DNA of 64,000 nt. It comes from Caballeronia turbans. GTDB taxonomy: Bacteria; Pseudomonadota; Gammaproteobacteria; Burkholderiales; Burkholderiaceae. Below the pieces are notes generated by a model, which saw only the letters and a list, made by a program, of their open reading frames with translations, did no database searches and had not been told where the DNA came from. Position 1 is the first letter of the stretch; each line of letters opens with the position of its first letter. Made by a program: the position numbers and the translations under genes. The DNA is taken from contig FCOD02000007.1 of the NCBI GenBank assembly GCA_001544655.2, forward strand, positions 186,001 to 250,000, in the 5' to 3' direction. This document shows, piece after piece, positions 23,933-62,151 of this stretch.

Positions 23933-23962
23933 TTGGCGACAACTACTGTATGCGTGTACAGT
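23933..23962 (+). promoter_or_regulatory. Candidate uvrA promoter overlapping the LexA box
   Basis: TTGGCG (23933-23938) and TACAGT (23957-23962) are separated by 18 bases, each matching four of six consensus positions. The LexA box lies in the spacer and overlaps the -10, ideal for repression. Confidence 0.55.
23946..23961. promoter_or_regulatory. LexA (SOS) box upstream of uvrA
   Basis: CTGTATGCGTGTACAG fits the CTGT-N8-ACAG consensus of LexA in beta- and gamma-proteobacteria. It is 97 bases upstream of the uvrA start codon and within the candidate promoter, so uvrA is probably damage-inducible. Confidence 0.85.
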
Positions 23963-24057: not shown

Positions 24058-27000
24058 TTGGCATCGAACAACGCAATCCGCATTCGCGGCGCACGTCAGC
24101 ATAACCTCAAGAATCTCGATCTCGACCTGCACACCGGCCAGATGACGGTCGTGACCGGGCCTTCCGGCTCGGGCAAGTCGAGCCTCGTATTCGATACGCT
24201 CTACGCGGAAGGCCAGCGCCGCTACGTCGAGACTTTCAGCGCGTACGCGCGCCAGTTTCTCGACCGGATGGACCGTCCGCAGGTCGATCGCGTGGACGGC
24301 GTGCCGCCCGCGATCGCCATCGACCAGACGAATCCGGTGCGCAGTTCGCGCTCGACCGTCGGCACGATGACCGAGCTCAACGATCACCTGAAGCTGTTCT
24401 ACGCTCGGGCCGCCGAACTGTTCGACAGGAAGACGTCGCAGCGCGTGCGCCACGACACGCCCGAAACGATCTACGCCGAGCTGCTCGAACGCACGCGCGC
24501 CGACGATCCGCGTCTCGCGATCACGTTTCCGGTCGAATTGCCGGATACCGCGAGCGATGAAGAAGTCGAGCAATGGCTGTCCGCGAGCGGCTACACGCGC
24601 GTGCAGGCGAAGCGCCACGTACAGACGGAATCCGGCGCACGGCAGATGCTCGATGTCGTCGCGGATCGCTTTCGCCTGCAGAACACGGAGCGCTCGCGTG
24701 CGCTCGAGGCGATCGAAAGCGCGTTGCTGCGCGGCACCGGCCGCGTCGACATTTACGTGCTGAAGGACGAAGGCGAGCCGGAAATCTGGCGCTTCTCCAC
24801 CGGCTTGCACAGCCCGGAAAGCGATCTGCGCTACGCGGACCCGCAGCCCGCGCTGTTCTCGTTCAATTCGGCGTACGGCGCGTGCGAAACGTGCCGCGGC
24901 TTTGGCCGCGTGATCGGCGTCGATTACGGGCTCGTCATTCCGGACGACAAGAAGACGCTGCGCGAAGGCGCCGTCAAGACGCTGCAAACGCCCGCGTGGA
25001 AAGAGAACCAGGACGATCTCGTGAAGTACGGCGCGAAGGCGGGCATCCGTCTCGGCGTGCCGTGGAAGGATCTCACGCAGGAAGAGCGCGACTGGGTCAT
25101 CAAGGGTTCGCCCGACTGGACCGGCAAGTGGCAGAACCAGTGGTACGGCGTGCAGCGCTTCTTCGACTATCTGGAGTCGAAGGCGTACAAGATGCACATC
25201 CGCGTGCTGCTGTCGAAATATCGCAGCTATACGACGTGCCCGGTGTGCGCCGGCGCGCGCCTGAAAACCGAATCGCTGCTGTGGCGTCTGGGCACGAAGG
25301 AACAGGCCGATGCGGTGCTGTCGCCGTCGGATCGCTTCATGCCGGAAGGCGTCGACTGGACGCGCGCGCAACTCGAGGCGCTGCCGGGCCTCACGGTTCA
25401 CGATCTGATGCTGATGCCGATCGAACGCATCCGCCGCTTCTTCGATTCGCTGACGCTGCCTTCGACGCTGCTCGACGAAGCGCTCAAGCTGCTGCACGCG
25501 GAAGTGCGCACGCGCCTCAAATATCTCTGCGATGTCGGGCTCGGCTATCTGACGCTCGATCGCCAGAGCCGCACGCTCTCGGGCGGCGAAGTGCAGCGCA
25601 TCAACCTGACGACCGCGCTCGGCACGTCGCTCGTGAATACGCTCTTCGTGCTCGATGAGCCGAGCATCGGCCTGCATCCGCGCGATCTGAACCGCATTGT
25701 CGAGGCGATGCACCGGCTGCGCGACGCGGGCAATACGCTCGTCGTCGTGGAGCACGATCCGTCGGTGATGCTCGCGGCGGATCGTCTCATCGACATGGGA
25801 CCGGGACCGGGCGAGCGCGGCGGTCAGATCGTCTACGACGGCGCCCCCGACGACATTCAAACCACCGACACCCTGACGGGCGCGTATCTCGGCGGCCGCA
25901 AGCATGTCGCGCATGCGTCGAACTGGAACCGGCGCGCCGTCGATGCGAACACGCCGCATCTCACGCTCGAAGGCGCGAGCGACCACAACCTGCGGGACGT
26001 GACGGTCGATATTCCGCTGCAACGTCTCGTCTGCGTGACGGGCGTATCCGGCTCGGGCAAATCGACGCTGATTCAGGACGTGCTCGCGCCCGCGCTGATG
26101 CGTCATTTCGGCAAGGCTACGGAAACGCCCGGCGCGTTTCGCGCATTGAAGGGCGCGGAGCATCTGAGCGATGTCGTTTTCGTCGATCAGTCGCCGATCG
26201 GGCGCACGGCGCGCTCGAATCCGGCGAGCTACGTCGGCGCGTTCGATGAAATCCGCAAGCTCTATGCGAAGGCGCCGCTCGCGTTGCAACGCGGCTACAG
26301 CGCGAGCATGTTCAGCTTCAATTCGGGGGACGGACGCTGCCCGACATGCGGCGGCTCGGGCTTCGAGCACGTCGAGATGCAGTTCCTGAGCGATGTCTAT
26401 CTGCGTTGCCCGGATTGCGATGGACGGCGTTATCGCGCTGAAATTCTCGAAGTGAAGATCGAGCGCGGCGGCCGTCAATTAAGCGTCGCCGACGTGCTCG
26501 AACTGACCGTGAGCGAAGCCGTCGATCTCTTCGCCGGCGACAAGGAAGTGCTGCGCGTGCTGCAGCCGATCGTCGATGTGGGTCTCGAATACGTGAAGCT
26601 CGGTCAGCCGGTACCGACGCTGTCGGGCGGCGAGGCGCAGCGACTCAAGCTCGCGGGTTATCTCGCGGAAACGTCGCAAAGCAAAGGCAGCGAACGCCGC
26701 CTCTTCATGTTCGACGAGCCGACCACCGGTCTGCATTTCGACGACATCGCCAAGCTGATGCAGGCGCTGCGGCGATTGCTCGAGCGCGGGCATTCGCTGA
26801 TCGTCATCGAACATAACCTCGATGTGATTCGCGCGGCCGACTGGATCATCGATCTCGGTCCCGAAGGCGGCGATGGCGGCGGTCAGGTCGTGTGCATCGG
26901 CACGCCCGACGACGTGGCCGCGTGCGAGCAGTCGCATACGGGCCGCGCCTTGCTCGATTACGAAGACGCGATGGCGCCCGGCGCGGCGCAAAAGCGCGCG

Positions 27001-29880
27001 GGCGTGCCGCTGCAACTCGCGGCGGAAGTCGCGAGCGCGCGCCGCGCGTTGCAGGGCGAGGACGTCGTGCGCATCGTCAACGCGCGCGAGCACAACCTGA
27101 AGTCGCTCGACGTCGATATCCCGCACAACAAGTTCAACGTCGTGACGGGCGTGTCCGGCTCGGGCAAGTCGACGCTCGCGTTCGACATCCTCTTTCACGA
27201 AGGCCAGCGACGTTATCTCGAATCGCTCAATGCGTATGCGCGTTCCATCGTGCAGCCCGCGGGACGTCCCGAAGTCGATGCCGTGTACGGCATTCCGCCG
27301 ACCGTCGCAATCGAACAGCGTCTGTCGCGCGGCGGGCGCAAGTCGACCGTCGCGACGACGTCGGAAGTCTGGCACTTCCTGCGTCTTTTGTACGTGAAGC
27401 TCGGCATCCAGCATTGCATCCACGACGGCACGCCGGTGCAGTCGCAAAGCTCGGAATCGATCGCCGCGCAGATCATGCGCGATTTCAAGGGACAACATGT
27501 CGGCCTGCTCGCGCCGCTCGTCGTGAACCGCAAGGGTGTGTACACCGATCTCGCGAAATGGGCGAAGGCGCGCGGCAACACGCATCTGCGCGTGGACGGC
27601 GAATTTCTGCCGGTGAGCCCGTGGCCCAAGCTCGACCGGTTCCGCGAGCATACGATCGAATTGCCGGTCGCGGATCTCGTCGTCTCGGCGGATAACGAAG
27701 CCGATCTGCGCCGTCTGCTCGACGAAACGCTGGAGATCGGCAAGGGCGTGATGCACCTGTGCGCGCCGCTCGACGATCTGCATGGCTCGTGGCAGGACGG
27801 CGCGCGCCGGGGCAAGGAAGAAACCCGCGTGTTTTCGACGAAGCGCGCATGTCCTGTCTGCGGCACGAGCTATCCCGAGCTCGATCCGCGCATGTTCTCG
27901 TACAACAGCAAGCACGGCTGGTGCAATACCTGCGTCGGCACGGGCGTGAAGCTCACGCGCGAGCAGCGCGCCGCGTTCGATGACACATTGTTCGCGCAGG
28001 ACGATCGCGGGCGCGAGCAGAGCATCGGCTCGGTGGAGCAGGAACCGGACGATATCGTCGATCAGCCGTGTCCGGACTGCGAAGGCACGCGTCTGAACGA
28101 GGTCGCCCGTGCCGTGACCTTCGGCAACTACCCGATCACGGAAGTCGGGCGCTGGACCGTGAGCGATACGCGTGAGTGGATCTCCACGCTCAGGCTGAAG
28201 GGCCGCGATGCGGATATCGCGCGCGACGTGATCAGCGAAATCGAAGGCCGTCTGCAGTTTCTCGAAGAAGTCGGGCTCGGCTATCTGAGCCTCGACCGCG
28301 CCGCGCCGACGCTTTCCGGCGGCGAAGCGCAACGCATTCGTCTCGCCGCGCAACTCGGCAGCAATCTGCAAGGCGTGTGCTACGTGCTCGATGAACCGAC
28401 CATCGGTTTGCATCCGCGCGACAACCTCATCCTGCTTGCAGCGCTGAAGAAGCTGAACGACAAGGGCAATACGCTCGTCGTCGTCGAGCATGACGAGGAC
28501 ACGATTCGCCGCGCGGATCACATCATCGATATCGGGCCGGGCGCGGGCAAGCGCGGCGGCACGGTGGTCGCGCAGGGCAACGTGACGGACCTCGCGGCGC
28601 ACAAGGCGTCGCTGACGGGGCAGTTCCTCGCGAACCCGATCTTGCATCCGTTGCAGCCGCGCCGCGAAGTGCGTGCCGGGACCGCGAAACGTCCGGCGAC
28701 GCCCGGGCAATGGCTCACGGTCGAAGGCGCGACGCTGCACAACCTGCGCAACGTGACGGCGAGCGTGCCATTGAATCGCCTCGTCGCGATCACGGGCGTG
28801 TCCGGCTCGGGCAAGTCGACCCTGGCGCGCGACGTGCTGATGACCAACCTGCTCGATGCCGTCGGCCGCTCGGTGCTGTCGTCGCCCGCGGTGCGGCGCG
28901 CGCGCAAGGCGGCGCAGGCCTCGGACACCGGCAAGCCCGCCGCGAGATCGCGCGCCAGCGTGCTCGCGCGCGAAGCGCCGCGCCCGACGTTCGACGTCAC
29001 GCACGCGTGGCAGGGCTGCAGCGGCCTGACCGGTTTCGAGACCATCGACCGCGTGCTCGAAGTCGATCAGACGCCGATCGGCAAGACGCCGCGCTCGTGT
29101 CCGGCGACGTACATCGGCATGTGGGACACCATCCGCAAGCTGTTCGCCGATACGCTCGAAGCCCGCGCGCGCGGCTATACGCCGTCGCGCTTTTCGTTCA
29201 ACACGGGCGAAGGACGTTGCCCGGCGTGCGAAGGCCAGGGCGTGCGCACCATCGCGATGAGCTTTTTGCCCGACGTGAAAGTACCGTGCGACGTATGCCA
29301 TGGACAGCGCTTCAATCCGGAGACGCTCGCGGTGACGTGGCGCGGCAAGAACATCGGCGAAGTACTGACGATGGAGATCGACGAGGCCGTCGAATTTTTT
29401 GCTTCGATGCAGAGCATCGCGCATCCGTTGCAGTTGCTGTGCGATGTCGGTCTCGGCTATCTGACCCTCGGCCAGCCTTCGCCGACGCTGTCGGGCGGCG
29501 AGGCGCAGCGCATCAAGCTCGTGACCGAGTTGTCCAAAGTGCGCGACGACATCACGCGGCGCGGCCAGAAGCCGCCGCATACGCTCTACGTGCTGGATGA
29601 ACCGACCGTCGGCCTTCACATGGCGGATGTCGCGAAGCTGATCCGCGTGCTGCATCGGCTGGTGGACGGCGGGCATAGCGTGATCGTCATCGAACACGAT
29701 CTCGACGTGATCGCCGAAGCCGACTGGGTGCTCGATCTCGGACCGGAAGGCGGCGTGAACGGCGGCACGATCGTCGCGGCGACGGACCCGGACACGCTCG
29801 CGACGCATCCGCGCAGCCATACGGGCGCGGCGCTGCGGCCGGTTCTGGGACGCTCGCGGGAGGCCGAGAATGCTGCGTGA
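24058..29880 (+). CDS. uvrA: Double-length UvrA (tandem fused excinuclease ABC subunit A)
   Basis: A 1940-residue protein with four ABC ATPase modules, i.e. two UvrA units in one chain. Walker A motifs are near residues 34, 662, 1031 and 1580. LSGGE(V/A)QR signatures are near 507, 855, 1419 and 1811. UvrA recognises bulky DNA damage as a dimer and loads UvrB, so this chain could act as a pseudo-dimer. The second unit keeps an intact first zinc module (C1265, C1268, C1289, C1292). In the first unit only C276 and C279 remain. The start is TTG at 24058; no in-frame ATG exists before the first Walker A motif, and an in-frame TAA sits at 24034. A LexA box lies upstream. Standard 950-residue UvrA is presumably encoded elsewhere. 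Confidence 0.93.
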   Translation: MASNNAIRIRGARQHNLKNLDLDLHTGQMTVVTGPSGSGKSSLVFDTLYAEGQRRYVETFSAYARQFLDRMDRPQVDRVDGVPPAIAIDQTNPVRSSRSTVGTMTELNDHLKLFYARAAELFDRKTSQRVRHDTPETIYAELLERTRADDPRLAITFPVELPDTASDEEVEQWLSASGYTRVQAKRHVQTESGARQMLDVVADRFRLQNTERSRALEAIESALLRGTGRVDIYVLKDEGEPEIWRFSTGLHSPESDLRYADPQPALFSFNSAYGACETCRGFGRVIGVDYGLVIPDDKKTLREGAVKTLQTPAWKENQDDLVKYGAKAGIRLGVPWKDLTQEERDWVIKGSPDWTGKWQNQWYGVQRFFDYLESKAYKMHIRVLLSKYRSYTTCPVCAGARLKTESLLWRLGTKEQADAVLSPSDRFMPEGVDWTRAQLEALPGLTVHDLMLMPIERIRRFFDSLTLPSTLLDEALKLLHAEVRTRLKYLCDVGLGYLTLDRQSRTLSGGEVQRINLTTALGTSLVNTLFVLDEPSIGLHPRDLNRIVEAMHRLRDAGNTLVVVEHDPSVMLAADRLIDMGPGPGERGGQIVYDGAPDDIQTTDTLTGAYLGGRKHVAHASNWNRRAVDANTPHLTLEGASDHNLRDVTVDIPLQRLVCVTGVSGSGKSTLIQDVLAPALMRHFGKATETPGAFRALKGAEHLSDVVFVDQSPIGRTARSNPASYVGAFDEIRKLYAKAPLALQRGYSASMFSFNSGDGRCPTCGGSGFEHVEMQFLSDVYLRCPDCDGRRYRAEILEVKIERGGRQLSVADVLELTVSEAVDLFAGDKEVLRVLQPIVDVGLEYVKLGQPVPTLSGGEAQRLKLAGYLAETSQSKGSERRLFMFDEPTTGLHFDDIAKLMQALRRLLERGHSLIVIEHNLDVIRAADWIIDLGPEGGDGGGQVVCIGTPDDVAACEQSHTGRALLDYEDAMAPGAAQKRAGVPLQLAAEVASARRALQGEDVVRIVNAREHNLKSLDVDIPHNKFNVVTGVSGSGKSTLAFDILFHEGQRRYLESLNAYARSIVQPAGRPEVDAVYGIPPTVAIEQRLSRGGRKSTVATTSEVWHFLRLLYVKLGIQHCIHDGTPVQSQSSESIAAQIMRDFKGQHVGLLAPLVVNRKGVYTDLAKWAKARGNTHLRVDGEFLPVSPWPKLDRFREHTIELPVADLVVSADNEADLRRLLDETLEIGKGVMHLCAPLDDLHGSWQDGARRGKEETRVFSTKRACPVCGTSYPELDPRMFSYNSKHGWCNTCVGTGVKLTREQRAAFDDTLFAQDDRGREQSIGSVEQEPDDIVDQPCPDCEGTRLNEVARAVTFGNYPITEVGRWTVSDTREWISTLRLKGRDADIARDVISEIEGRLQFLEEVGLGYLSLDRAAPTLSGGEAQRIRLAAQLGSNLQGVCYVLDEPTIGLHPRDNLILLAALKKLNDKGNTLVVVEHDEDTIRRADHIIDIGPGAGKRGGTVVAQGNVTDLAAHKASLTGQFLANPILHPLQPRREVRAGTAKRPATPGQWLTVEGATLHNLRNVTASVPLNRLVAITGVSGSGKSTLARDVLMTNLLDAVGRSVLSSPAVRRARKAAQASDTGKPAARSRASVLAREAPRPTFDVTHAWQGCSGLTGFETIDRVLEVDQTPIGKTPRSCPATYIGMWDTIRKLFADTLEARARGYTPSRFSFNTGEGRCPACEGQGVRTIAMSFLPDVKVPCDVCHGQRFNPETLAVTWRGKNIGEVLTMEIDEAVEFFASMQSIAHPLQLLCDVGLGYLTLGQPSPTLSGGEAQRIKLVTELSKVRDDITRRGQKPPHTLYVLDEPTVGLHMADVAKLIRVLHRLVDGGHSVIVIEHDLDVIAEADWVLDLGPEGGVNGGTIVAATDPDTLATHPRSHTGAALRPVLGRSREAENAA

Positions 29881-58224: not shown

Positions 58225-60546
58225 CTAGATAGTCGGATTTCCCGATACGCCCAGGTCACGTTGCCGCAGCACTTTCACCTGCCACCACGCGGGTAGCAGG
58301 CGCCGGACTTCCGCGCGCGCGAAGCGGTCGTCGATCAGATAGAGCACGCCGCGATCGAGCGGCCCGCGGATCACACGCCCGGCCGCCTGCACGACTTTCT
58401 GCAAGCCGGGAAAAAGATACGTGTATGCGTAGCCCTCGCCGAACGCCTCGTGCATGCGCGCTTTCATTTGCTGATTGACAGGATTGAGCTGCGGCAGACC
58501 GAGCGTCGCAACGAACGCGCCGATGAGCCGCGTGCCGGGCAGATCGATCGCTTCGCCGAACGCGCCGCCGAGCACCGCGAAACCGACGCCGCGCCCGCCG
58601 GCCACGAAACGCGCGAGAAACTCGCGTTGCGCCGCTTCGCTCATCGCGCGGGATTGCTGCCAGCATGGAATCGACGGATGACGGAGCGCGAGCGCCGCCG
58701 CGACTTGCGTCAGATACTCGAAGCTGCTGAAGAAGCTCAGGTAGTTGCCCTCGGCGCTTTCGAGCTGCGCGGCGATGAGGTCGGCGATACGGTCCACCGA
58801 GCGCGCGCGGTCGCGATAGCGCGTGGACAGGTCGGCGATTGCGCGCACGTCGAGTTGTTCGGCGCAGAAGGGCGATTCGACGTCGATGCGTACGCTCGAC
58901 TCCGGCAGGCCGAGCGTATCCGCGTAGAAGTGCGCGGGCGTGAGCGTCGCGGAAAAAAGCGCGACGCTGTGGGCGCGCGCCAGACGCGGCGTGAGATGCG
59001 GCGCGGGAATCACGTTGCGCAGGCACAGCACGGCATTGCGTTTTTTGGCGTTTGCACCCACCCGGCCAAGCGTGATGTCGAAGATCGAATGCGAACCGAA
59101 GCGTTCCGCGATGCGCGTGAAATGCATGGCATCGAAATAGAAGCGCAAGATTTCGGGCGTGAAGACGTCGGGCTGCTCGCCGAGCGTTTCCGTCATCAGC
59201 GAGACGGCTTGCCCCAGCGCCGTGAGCAGGCGCGCGGGCGGTTCCGCATGTGCCGCGTATTCGATGTTCGCCGCGTCCTGTTCACGCGTCACTTCGCTCC
59301 AGCTTCGCGCGACGCGGCCGAGCGCCTGCTTCAGCAAAACGGGCGCGCCGCGACGCATCGCATTGAAGGCGGCCTGATCGAGCGTCGCGGAATACATGCC
59401 GCGCGCCCGTTCGACGAGGTTATGCGCTTCGTCGACGAGCACCGACACGCGCCAGCGATTCGCCTCCGCGAGCGCGAAGAGCATGGCGCTCGTATCGAAG
59501 TAATAGTTGTAGTCGCCGACGATCACGTCGCCCCAGCGCGACAGTTCCTGGCTCAGATAGTACGGACAGACTTCGTGCTCTCGTGCGACCTCGGCAACCG
59601 ACGCGCGGTCGAGCTGCGCGCAGTCGAGGGCGGCGGCACGCGCCCCGGGCAGGCGATCGTAGAAGCCCCGCGCGAGCGGACACGACTCGCCGTGGCACGC
59701 GCGATCGGGGTATTCGCAAGCCTTGTCGCGCGCAACGAGTTCGACGACGCGTAACGGCCTGGCGGCGAGCGTCGTCAGCGCATCGAGCGCGAGCTGCCGT
59801 CCCGCGCTCTTCGCCGTGAGAAAGAAGATCTTGTCGAGCCGCTGGCCCGGCCACGCCTTCAGCAGCGGAAAGAGCGTGCCGACCGTTTTGCCGATGCCGG
59901 TCGGCGCCTGCGCCGCGAGACAGCGGCCGGACACCGCCGAGCGATACACCGCTTCCGCGAGTGCGCGCTGGCCGGGCCGAAAATCCGCGTGAGGAAACAC
60001 GAGTGCTCTGAGCGCGTCATCGCGCGCCGCGCCGTGCGCCAGCTCCTGTTCTGCCCACGCGATGAAGCGCTCGCACTGCGCCGCGAAATGCGTCGCGAGC
60101 GCTTCGGCGGTCTGCGTTTCGACGAGCACGCTCTCGGTCTGATCGACGATATCGAAATACACGAGCGCGACCTCGATGGCGTCGAGCCCGAGCTTGCGGC
60201 ACATCAGATGCGCATAGACACGCGCCTGCGCCCAATGCAGATGACGATGATTCTGCGGCATCGATTCGAGCTTGCCGCGATGCGTCTTGATCTCTTCGAG
60301 ACGGTTGAGCGCGGGATCGTACCCGTCGGCGCGGCCGCGCACGAAGAGCGGCCCGTAGGTTTCCGAAAGCGATATTTCCTTCTGATATCCGGCCGGCCGG
60401 CGGCTCGTCACCGCGACGTGGCCCGCGACGCCTTCCTGCGCGCTTGGCGTGGGCGTGAAGCGCAGATCGAGGTCGCCCTGTTTCGCGGTGAACTCGCAGA
60501 GCGCGCGCACGGCGACGGTGTAGGCGGGCTCGGATACTGTATGCAT
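58225..60546 (-). CDS. PD-(D/E)XK nuclease - XPD/DinG-type Fe-S helicase fusion
   Basis: A 773-residue protein. Residues about 60-170 look like a Cas4/RecB-type nuclease domain: D74 in GRADGYDP and E85-x-K87 in LEEIKTHRG. The helicase follows: Walker A APTGIGKT (214-221), Fe-S cysteines C277, C284, C289 and C327, the DEAH box at 372-375 (VDEAHNLVERA), and motif VI QAAGRVIRGPLDRGVLYL. XPD/DinG helicases unwind 5'-to-3' and process repair intermediates. Start ATG 60546 lies inside a LexA box; no ribosome site precedes it. The long in-frame extension upstream is antisense to nothing recognisable and runs through the MocR gene. Confidence 0.9.
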   Translation of the reverse strand: MHTVSEPAYTVAVRALCEFTAKQGDLDLRFTPTPSAQEGVAGHVAVTSRRPAGYQKEISLSETYGPLFVRGRADGYDPALNRLEEIKTHRGKLESMPQNHRHLHWAQARVYAHLMCRKLGLDAIEVALVYFDIVDQTESVLVETQTAEALATHFAAQCERFIAWAEQELAHGAARDDALRALVFPHADFRPGQRALAEAVYRSAVSGRCLAAQAPTGIGKTVGTLFPLLKAWPGQRLDKIFFLTAKSAGRQLALDALTTLAARPLRVVELVARDKACEYPDRACHGESCPLARGFYDRLPGARAAALDCAQLDRASVAEVAREHEVCPYYLSQELSRWGDVIVGDYNYYFDTSAMLFALAEANRWRVSVLVDEAHNLVERARGMYSATLDQAAFNAMRRGAPVLLKQALGRVARSWSEVTREQDAANIEYAAHAEPPARLLTALGQAVSLMTETLGEQPDVFTPEILRFYFDAMHFTRIAERFGSHSIFDITLGRVGANAKKRNAVLCLRNVIPAPHLTPRLARAHSVALFSATLTPAHFYADTLGLPESSVRIDVESPFCAEQLDVRAIADLSTRYRDRARSVDRIADLIAAQLESAEGNYLSFFSSFEYLTQVAAALALRHPSIPCWQQSRAMSEAAQREFLARFVAGGRGVGFAVLGGAFGEAIDLPGTRLIGAFVATLGLPQLNPVNQQMKARMHEAFGEGYAYTYLFPGLQKVVQAAGRVIRGPLDRGVLYLIDDRFARAEVRRLLPAWWQVKVLRQRDLGVSGNPTI

Positions 60547-60552
60547 GTACAG
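60537..60552. promoter_or_regulatory. LexA (SOS) box at the nuclease-helicase start
   Basis: CTGTATGCATGTACAG matches CTGT-N8-ACAG and differs from the uvrA box at one base. The helicase ATG is inside it. On the minus strand a -10-like TAGACT sits at 60554-60559, putting the predicted transcript start at or next to the ATG. Confidence 0.85.
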
Positions 60553-60587
60553 CAGTCTAGCATGGGCGAATCGGCCGCAAAGGCCTT

Positions 60588-61997
60588 CTACGACGCGGCG
60601 CGCAGAAGTTCTCCGAGCGTTTTCACGGCGCCCTCGACCTGCGGCGACCACGGATGGCCGAAGTTGATGCGCACGTAATTCCCGAACGCGTGACGCGCGG
60701 AGAAGATCGGTCCGGGTGTCACGTTGATGCCATGTTCGAGTCCGCGCTTGTGCAACTGCATCGCGTCGACATGCTCGGCCAGTCGCAGCCAGAGGAAATA
60801 GCCGCCCTCCGGCTGCTGATGCGCGACCTCCGGCGGCAGCCAGCGCGCGATGGCGTGTTCCATCGCACCGCGCTGCGTGAGAAGCGCGCCGCGCAGCTTG
60901 CGCAGGTGTTTGTCGAAGCCGCCGTGCTGAAGATAGTCGGCGATGCCCGCCTGAACCGGGATGCTGGTCGAGATGCTCGTCATCAGCTTGAGCCGGCGGA
61001 TCGCGTCGGCGAAGCGGCCCGCCGCGACCCAGCCGAGCCGGTAACCCGGCGCGAGCGTCTTCGACAGCGACGCGCAATGCATCACGAGACCTGTCGTATC
61101 GAAGGCTTTCGCGGGCGGCGGACGATCCGGCGCGAAATGCAGCTCGCCGTAGACATCGTCCTCGATGAGCGGAACGTCATGCTTCGTGAGCAAGCCGACC
61201 AGCGCGCGCTTTTTCTCGACGGAGAGCGTCACGCCCGTCGGATTCTGAAAGTTGGTCATGAACCAGCAGGCGCGCACCGGATGCTTGACGAGCGCTTCGG
61301 CGAGCACGTCGAGATCGAGCCCTTCTCGCGGATCGACGGGAATCTCGACCGCGCGCAGGCCCAGATGCTCGACCGCCTGCAACGCCGCGTAGAAGCAGGG
61401 CGATTCGATGGCGACGACATCGCCCGGCTTGGTGACGGCCATGAGGCTGAGCGTGAGCGCTTCCATCGCGCCGTTCGTGACGATGAGTTCCTCGACCGGC
61501 TGCGCGATGCCCATGCCGATGTAACGCAGTGCGATCTGCCGCCGCAGTTGCTCGTTGCCCGGTGGCATGTCGACGACCGTGCTCCACGGATCGAGCATGC
61601 GCGCCGCGTGGCCGAGCGACTTCGCAAGACGTGCCAGCGGAAAGAGTTTCGGCGACGGAAACGCGGAGCCGAGCGGCGCGACGTCCGGACGCTTGACCGC
61701 ATCGAGCACGGAGAAGACGAGGCTGCTCACGTCGATGGCCGCGGGCTCCGCGAGCGGCGTGGGCGAAGTAGCTTGCGTCGCTACCTTCGCGCCCGGTGCG
61801 ACGTAATAGCCGGAACGTTCGCGCGCGCGAATCAAGCCCCATTCTTCGAGCAGGTAATACGCGCGAAAGACCGTCGACTGGCCGACGCCGTATTGCGTCG
61901 TCAGATGCCGCACCGACGGCAGGCGCGTGCCGACGGGCAGCCGGCCCGCGCGAATCTCGGCGGCCATCGTGTCGGCAAGGGCTTGGTAGCGCTTCAT
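60588..61997 (-). CDS. MocR-type regulator / PLP aminotransferase fusion
   Basis: A 469-residue protein. The GntR winged helix is at about 1-70 (KRYQALADTMAAEIRAGRLPVGTRLPSVRHLTTQYGVGQSTVFRAYY), then an aminotransferase domain with the PLP Lys in HCASLSKTLAPGYRLGW and EDDVYGELHF. It is the third MocR protein in this window. ATG 61997 is chosen because the HTH domain starts there. It ends 41 bases before the helicase start, so its 3' flank contains the helicase promoter. The target gene is not identified. Confidence 0.9.
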   Translation of the reverse strand: MKRYQALADTMAAEIRAGRLPVGTRLPSVRHLTTQYGVGQSTVFRAYYLLEEWGLIRARERSGYYVAPGAKVATQATSPTPLAEPAAIDVSSLVFSVLDAVKRPDVAPLGSAFPSPKLFPLARLAKSLGHAARMLDPWSTVVDMPPGNEQLRRQIALRYIGMGIAQPVEELIVTNGAMEALTLSLMAVTKPGDVVAIESPCFYAALQAVEHLGLRAVEIPVDPREGLDLDVLAEALVKHPVRACWFMTNFQNPTGVTLSVEKKRALVGLLTKHDVPLIEDDVYGELHFAPDRPPPAKAFDTTGLVMHCASLSKTLAPGYRLGWVAAGRFADAIRRLKLMTSISTSIPVQAGIADYLQHGGFDKHLRKLRGALLTQRGAMEHAIARWLPPEVAHQQPEGGYFLWLRLAEHVDAMQLHKRGLEHGINVTPGPIFSARHAFGNYVRINFGHPWSPQVEGAVKTLGELLRAAS

Positions 61998-62151
61998 CGC
62001 GTGACGTGGGTGAAAGTGCGCGCGAGGGCTTTGCGCGGCGCGAAATTGTCTCATACGGCCTCGCGAAGGAATATCGGCACACCGCCGCGCGTTTAATGGA
62101 CAAGCGGCTTAATCGCCGTGTCCGCTTTTCAAACCTTTCGGAGGTGCTTCC

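Follow-up and report, generated by a model that had tools for sequence, protein, structure and literature searches.

A LexA-type operator enclosing the start codon of a probably leaderless helicase gene in Caballeronia

In the window (the whole 64,000-nucleotide stretch of Caballeronia turbans DNA that was analysed), the start codon of a helicase gene lies inside a palindromic LexA-type box, just behind an extended -10 element. The arrangement of these elements and their conservation among relatives make it likely, in our judgement, that the site is a LexA-repressed SOS promoter whose operator coincides with the starts of both transcription and translation, and that the helicase mRNA is leaderless or carries a leader of one or two nucleotides.

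Results

The start codon of the helicase gene is enclosed by a palindromic box

The minus strand from 60562 to 60537 reads TGCTAGACT-G-CTGTACATGCATACAG, and the ATG is enclosed by the box (Table 1). The preliminary description of this DNA had placed the ATG within the box and a -10-like TAGACT close by, which proved correct in sequence and coordinates. It had missed the TGC directly 5′ of the hexamer TAGACT (60559-60554, minus strand), which makes the element an extended -10. Counting from the hexamer, the eighth base is the A of the ATG, and a C precedes it. No -35 element is recognisable at the helicase promoter, and a sigma-70 promoter scan, which requires a -35, found nothing at the site. 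For the upstream neighbour, the Pfam domains GntR and Aminotran_1_2 were both above cut-off (60588-62006).

Table 1. Elements of the helicase promoter region, in window coordinates
Feature	Position	Strand	Remarks
Extended -10 element TGCTAGACT	60562-60554	minus	TGCTA(G/A)A(C/A)T in 34/34 clade I genomes
Free base between -10 and box	60553	minus	G, A or C among relatives; major base 0.50
LexA-type operator CTGTACATGCATACAG	60552-60537	minus	palindromic arms flank the start codon; LexA binding predicted
ATG start codon within the operator	60546-60544	minus	transcription start predicted at its A or at most 2 nt away
773-aa helicase gene	58225..60546	minus	XPD/DinG-related
GntR-aminotransferase (MocR-type) regulator ORF	60588..62054	minus	upstream neighbour; end 41 nt from the ATG

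The product had been called a nuclease-helicase, and its helicase identity was borne out by Helicase_C_2 and DEAD_2 domains above the Pfam cut-offs and by a match, across residues 11-755, to a solved 748-residue 'DNA 5′-3′ helicase' (9kqh). Its scores fall far under the NCBIfam equivalog cut-offs (80.8 bits versus 680 for YoaA, 69.1 versus 598 for DinG); thus the helicase is a relative of these proteins and a member of neither equivalog. Among named loci, those most identical to the protein belong to Caballeronia. Seven residues of interest are invariant in an alignment of 24 sequences, namely C277, C284, C289 and C327, and D74, E85 and K87 in the N-terminal region. The cysteines, which we take to be the set that holds an XPD-type iron-sulphur cluster, fit such a cluster. 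The D74/E85/K87 pattern, presumably a PD-(D/E)XK-like nuclease motif, fits a putative nuclease part of that kind in the N-terminal region; a Pfam search of residues 1-182 gave no family.

The promoter, box and start codon are kept together in Caballeronia clade I

The helicase gene is present in 49 of the 58 genus genomes. Start positions were compared at 48 loci in 46 genomes, leaving out G003, G005 and G056, in which the N-terminus was unmatched. In 35 of the 48 loci (34 of the 46 genomes), or 37 if the broken genes L060 and L062 are counted, the ATG stands at box offset 6; the spacing of box and ATG in these relatives equals that in the window. We call this group clade I; it is delimited by the start position itself, and the invariance of the ATG in its 34 genomes (34/34) has to be read with this definition in mind. 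In all 35 clade I loci the -10 element ends 1 nt ahead of the box, with 7 nt between hexamer and ATG. Over the block from -16 to +9 the mean pairwise identity within clade I is 0.953, far above that of the flanks: the 54 bases upstream (0.336) are unalignable and the 80 bases downstream reach 0.701. At the synonymous third position, codon 3 (ACA) shows no variation (34/34), while codon 4, which lies outside the box, varies (0.74). Residue 2 is His or Arg, depending on the A or G at box position 11; in the window and most of its relatives, the right half of the operator is read as Met-His-Thr (or Met-Arg-Thr)-Val.

A search with the full-architecture pattern TANNNTNCTGTNNATGNNNACAG returned 36 places in 35 of the 58 genus genomes, all of them at the helicase; the control returned 0. 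Across the class, the same pattern was found in 2 of 369 genomes (G000, the window's own genome, and G505), and the reversed control once each in two others. This is chance level, and the exact architecture was rejected as a feature beyond the genus.

The in-box ATG is the best candidate for the protein start. The window does leave room for a different reading, in which the box is real, the protein starts elsewhere (at an upstream GTG or TTG, or at the GTG of codon 13) and the overlap is incidental. Its frame is open upstream, in an ORF extending to 61077 with two further candidates, a GTG at -99 and a TTG at -525 relative to the box start, and the choice of start codon consequently rests on the comparison with relatives. 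In that comparison, however, the in-box ATG is the sole ATG, GTG or TTG from the in-frame stop to the conserved core in 27 of the 34 clade I genomes, which rejects an upstream start as a general rule; the extra in-frame candidates of the seven others, the window's genome included, are all upstream. Between the in-box ATG and the core no start candidate occurs in any of the 34 genomes, and V13 itself lies within the conserved core. A start candidate lies two codons ahead of Y9 in many orthologues from other genera, for which reason residues 1-8 look dispensable across species, but the ATG is invariant in clade I, even if that clade is delimited by it. A protein start outside the box is thus quite improbable, and we keep to the in-box ATG. 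Nor do the clade I sequences contain what would have spoken against the proposal of the preliminary description: the box is kept, a true start downstream is absent, and no ribosome site is conserved upstream.

The box resembles the LexA sites of the same genome

The bare pattern CTGT-N8-ACAG is weak evidence, because its two matches in the window (0.28 expected) are equalled by at least two in 4 of 100 shuffles. Genome-wide it has 42 matches against 26 for the reversed control, and many of them are therefore chance, which lends some weight to the view that the palindrome is no LexA site, or a non-functional relic of one. A weight matrix was built from 11 other boxes of the same genome, AT-rich ones picked by eye from the CTGT-N8-ACAG list, with the second box of the window included in the training and the helicase box left out. 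The helicase box scored 22.5, the highest value in the window and within the range of the training boxes (19.7-29.1), those of lexA and dinB among them. None of 60 Markov sequences of window length reached 19.4 (maximum 12.7), scoring being limited to 16-mers with CT at the start or AG at the end. Furthermore, CTGT-N8-ACAG is retained in 45 of the 48 Caballeronia loci despite the unalignable flanks seen in clade I. Against the matrix score and this retention, a palindrome without LexA function is very improbable, the least probable of the readings that we weighed. A chance palindrome was ruled out by the matrix score, the conservation in relatives and the genus-wide pattern count.

The genes behind the training boxes were identified by Pfam as lexA (two boxes), dinB, a DUF2471 gene, a UvrA-like gene, two radical-SAM proteins and one DUF4130/UDG protein; recA and imuA were recognised by eye, imuA having no Pfam match, and a 74-aa ORF lies behind one box. 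The starts chosen for ten training-box genes are 25 to 126 nt away from where the box begins, a choice that is not forced everywhere (L070, for example, also has in-frame candidates ahead of its box). The helicase start, 6 nt from the box start, is the only chosen start that lies inside its box. Two features of a LexA regulon are found at the helicase: its box is like those of the genome's own lexA, recA and dinB, and it sits on the core promoter and start, where it is kept in relatives.

Several loci depart from the common picture. Within clade I, the box is weaker in L045 and L046 (CTGTGC, score 16.7). The decayed gene L060 has lost one box base; the broken gene L062 keeps its box intact, and box retention alone is therefore no proof of a working gene. 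No box was found at L063 or at L061, a second copy in G030. One genome carries two helicase loci with identical 5′ sequence in opposite orientation (L047 and L048; G052, contig C19).

Two of the training boxes were recorded separately. The second box of the window, CTGTATGCGTGTACAG (23946-23961, plus strand), starts 112 nt from the TTG of the UvrA-like ORF, which spans 24058-29880 and encodes 1940 aa. A good LexA-type box at G000:C50:197393-197408 (L067) is followed by no clear gene in the frames that were examined.

A sister clade keeps the box and starts outside it

Nine loci, C. sordidicola among them, form clade II, in which the box is kept and the start lies outside it. They have ATC (8) or ATT (1) in place of the in-box ATG, and their own ATG stands 21 nt from the box start, with TGnTAnnnT upstream. 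The predicted leader is about 17 nt in eight of the nine loci and 15 nt in L053, for which a different hexamer was taken. A tree of 47 proteins places the 33 clade I rows to one side of a modestly supported branch (86/72). Support is 100/100 for clade II (4 rows) and 100/99 for the split between the two clades together and 10 outgroup rows. This grouping into clade I, clade II and outgroup indicates that the in-operator start probably goes back to a single event, either a gain or a loss. Clade I probably descends from one ancestor, so that its 34 genomes are not independent inventions.

The predicted leader is zero to two nucleotides long

We fixed a single rule for the transcription start, +1 being the eighth base after the -10 hexamer. 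Under this rule the leader is 0 nt in all 35 clade I loci; placing +1 at the seventh or sixth base instead gives 1 or 2 nt. The earlier remark that no Shine-Dalgarno is visible holds across the clade with little change: between -20 and -4, the longest match is 0 in 19, 3 nt in 14 and 4 nt in 1 of the 34 genomes. Clade I combines the marks of leaderless genes, with an AUG start (34/34), a fixed short spacing from the -10 element and a Shine-Dalgarno that is absent or minimal.

A leadered mRNA could still arise from an upstream promoter or by read-through from the neighbour, with LexA control kept and the in-box ATG used without a Shine-Dalgarno. The same-strand neighbour comes to within 41 nt of the ATG, and the clade II starts, eight of nine of which show no Shine-Dalgarno run, are likewise used without one. 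However, nothing is conserved upstream of TGCTAGACT, where pairwise identity is 0.34, and it is the block that stays constant while its flanks vary. This makes a leadered mRNA unlikely, though it is the most serious of the alternatives, and the merged promoter is our preferred reading.

According to the merged arrangement, RNA polymerase would recognise the extended -10 element TGCTAGACT and initiate at the A of the ATG or at most two bases away. With LexA on the box, which spans roughly -6 to +10, the polymerase would be kept off both the extended -10 and the start site, and RecA-driven cleavage of LexA after damage would free the promoter. Initiation at the CA step would then give an mRNA that begins with AUG (or 1-2 nt earlier), without a good Shine-Dalgarno. 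LexA binding, the transcription start, leaderless translation and damage induction are all steps that we infer from the DNA sequence.

In other genera a similar module mostly stands at a FAN1-like gene

In many loci outside Caballeronia the helicase start overlaps the upstream reading frame. A strong box was found in 11 of 40 non-Caballeronia family loci for which 551 bases were fetched, comprising all ten of genus g3 (Cupriavidus) and L112; the other 29 had box scores of at most 4.2. Within 400 nt upstream of 63 named non-Caballeronia loci there were two strong boxes (L176 and L186, Cupriavidus) and two weak ones (8.3 and 9.0), and 59 loci had none above 8.

VRR-NUC genes were surveyed at 60 loci, 7 in Caballeronia and 53 in other genera. 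A strong box together with the expected frame was present in 53 of the 60, and 48 of these 53 have TGnTAnnnT 1-6 nt ahead of the box (46 of the 47 with the frame in other genera and 2 of the 6 in Caballeronia). The misses are L233, L234, L237, L250, L256, L266 and L273; L234 and L256 do have the box, with the frame unrecognised. All ten VRR-NUC genes that were tested are FAN1-like by the domains FAN1_HTH, FANC_SAP and VRR_NUC, the remaining ones being assigned via an N-terminal motif only. FAN1-like genes with a LexA-type box are those of L216, L222, L225, L227, L228, L235, L243, L246, L253 and L254, and for nine of these ten (not L216) the stretch was taken directly 5′ of the helicase. An SOS-controlled FAN1-helicase operon is possible in those loci. 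In the other sampled Burkholderiaceae, a like promoter and box module mostly precedes a FAN1-like VRR-NUC gene just 5′ of the helicase.

Within Caballeronia, the VRR_NUC domain is above cut-off in 12 of the 58 genomes, and the window's genome has none. Strong matches (best E 1e-34 or better) come from eight genomes, all of clade II (8/9). A weaker one is found in G005 (E 1.2e-13), and marginal ones in G010 and G039, both of clade I, and in G056. This distribution suggests that the promoter of an ancestral FAN1-helicase operon, or one like it, may have come to stand directly before the helicase in Caballeronia and to drive that gene by itself, one lineage using the in-operator ATG.

Three clade II VRR-NUC loci (L216, L219 and L238) have a box, CTGTATATGCATACAG, that holds an in-frame ATG at offset 6, followed by a second ATG at 21; on this ground the in-box ATG may have been available in more than one instance. 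In G030 (contig C116), the boxless second helicase copy L061, 60% identical, adjoins a VRR-NUC gene with a box (L217). In G106 (L112 and L234), a box follows TGCTATGAT in the 551 bases around the helicase start, with the VRR-NUC frame unrecognised.

Discussion

The separate ingredients of this site, namely LexA control of such a helicase, a leaderless SOS mRNA and operators at starts, are already known. The lambda cI mRNA transcribed from PRM is repressor-controlled, leaderless and begins with AUG; it differs from the present case in that cI is a phage gene and its operators lie upstream of the start.

For the helicase itself, LexA sites were predicted in 2012 at betaproteobacterial 'Helicase c2' genes (PMC3323433). 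In P. aeruginosa, PA1045 has been described as directly LexA-regulated, and PA1044/PA1045 were unchanged after UV-C (PMC12796719). These helicases are presumably of the same kind, and in both accounts a LexA site is predicted or reported. The available text of the two sources is silent on a start codon within the box, as seen at the site described here, and on a leaderless mRNA, as predicted for it.

Leaderless transcripts are documented in a relative. In B. cenocepacia, 72 genes are reported to begin exactly at the annotated start and 42 more within 10 nt of it, 24 of those transcripts being tRNAs (PMC4603805). The lexA mRNA of M. tuberculosis is leaderless, and, as is predicted for the helicase here, it belongs to an SOS gene whose translation start is its transcription start; the organism, however, is of another phylum, and an operator over the start codon goes unmentioned in the text available to us (PMC2897130).

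Operators at transcription starts have been described as well. In Deinococcus, damage operators (RDRM, bound by DdrO) lie close to or over transcription starts, as is predicted here, and leaderless mRNAs are reported. Repressor, operator and induction all differ, and the accessible portions of these papers do not describe a start codon of an induced gene within the operator (PMC8072749, PMC5552922). At the class 1 integron intI1 promoter, a LexA box likewise covers core promoter elements, but there it overlaps the -10, and a start codon in the box is not mentioned in the portion of the account at hand (PMC3375312). In the literature searched, which covered few subscription journals, no account of a leaderless gene with its start codon enclosed by a LexA box came to light; as far as that literature shows, the operator-embedded and probably leaderless start is new.

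A bolder reading, which we offer tentatively and would not bet on, is that the operator itself is the translation initiation region, one set of 16 bases encoding repression, the start of transcription and leaderless initiation alike. Such an arrangement would have had a single origin in Caballeronia, from an ancestor that was leadered or part of an operon, and translation of the mRNA could differ from that of leadered SOS mRNAs under stress.

If true, the finding would place the constraint on an operator and the constraint on a start codon on the same bases, with the leadered sister clade as a natural control. It would allow one to ask whether a proteobacterial leaderless SOS mRNA is translated differently during DNA damage, and would show how a gene can switch between a leadered and a leaderless start with its regulation kept.
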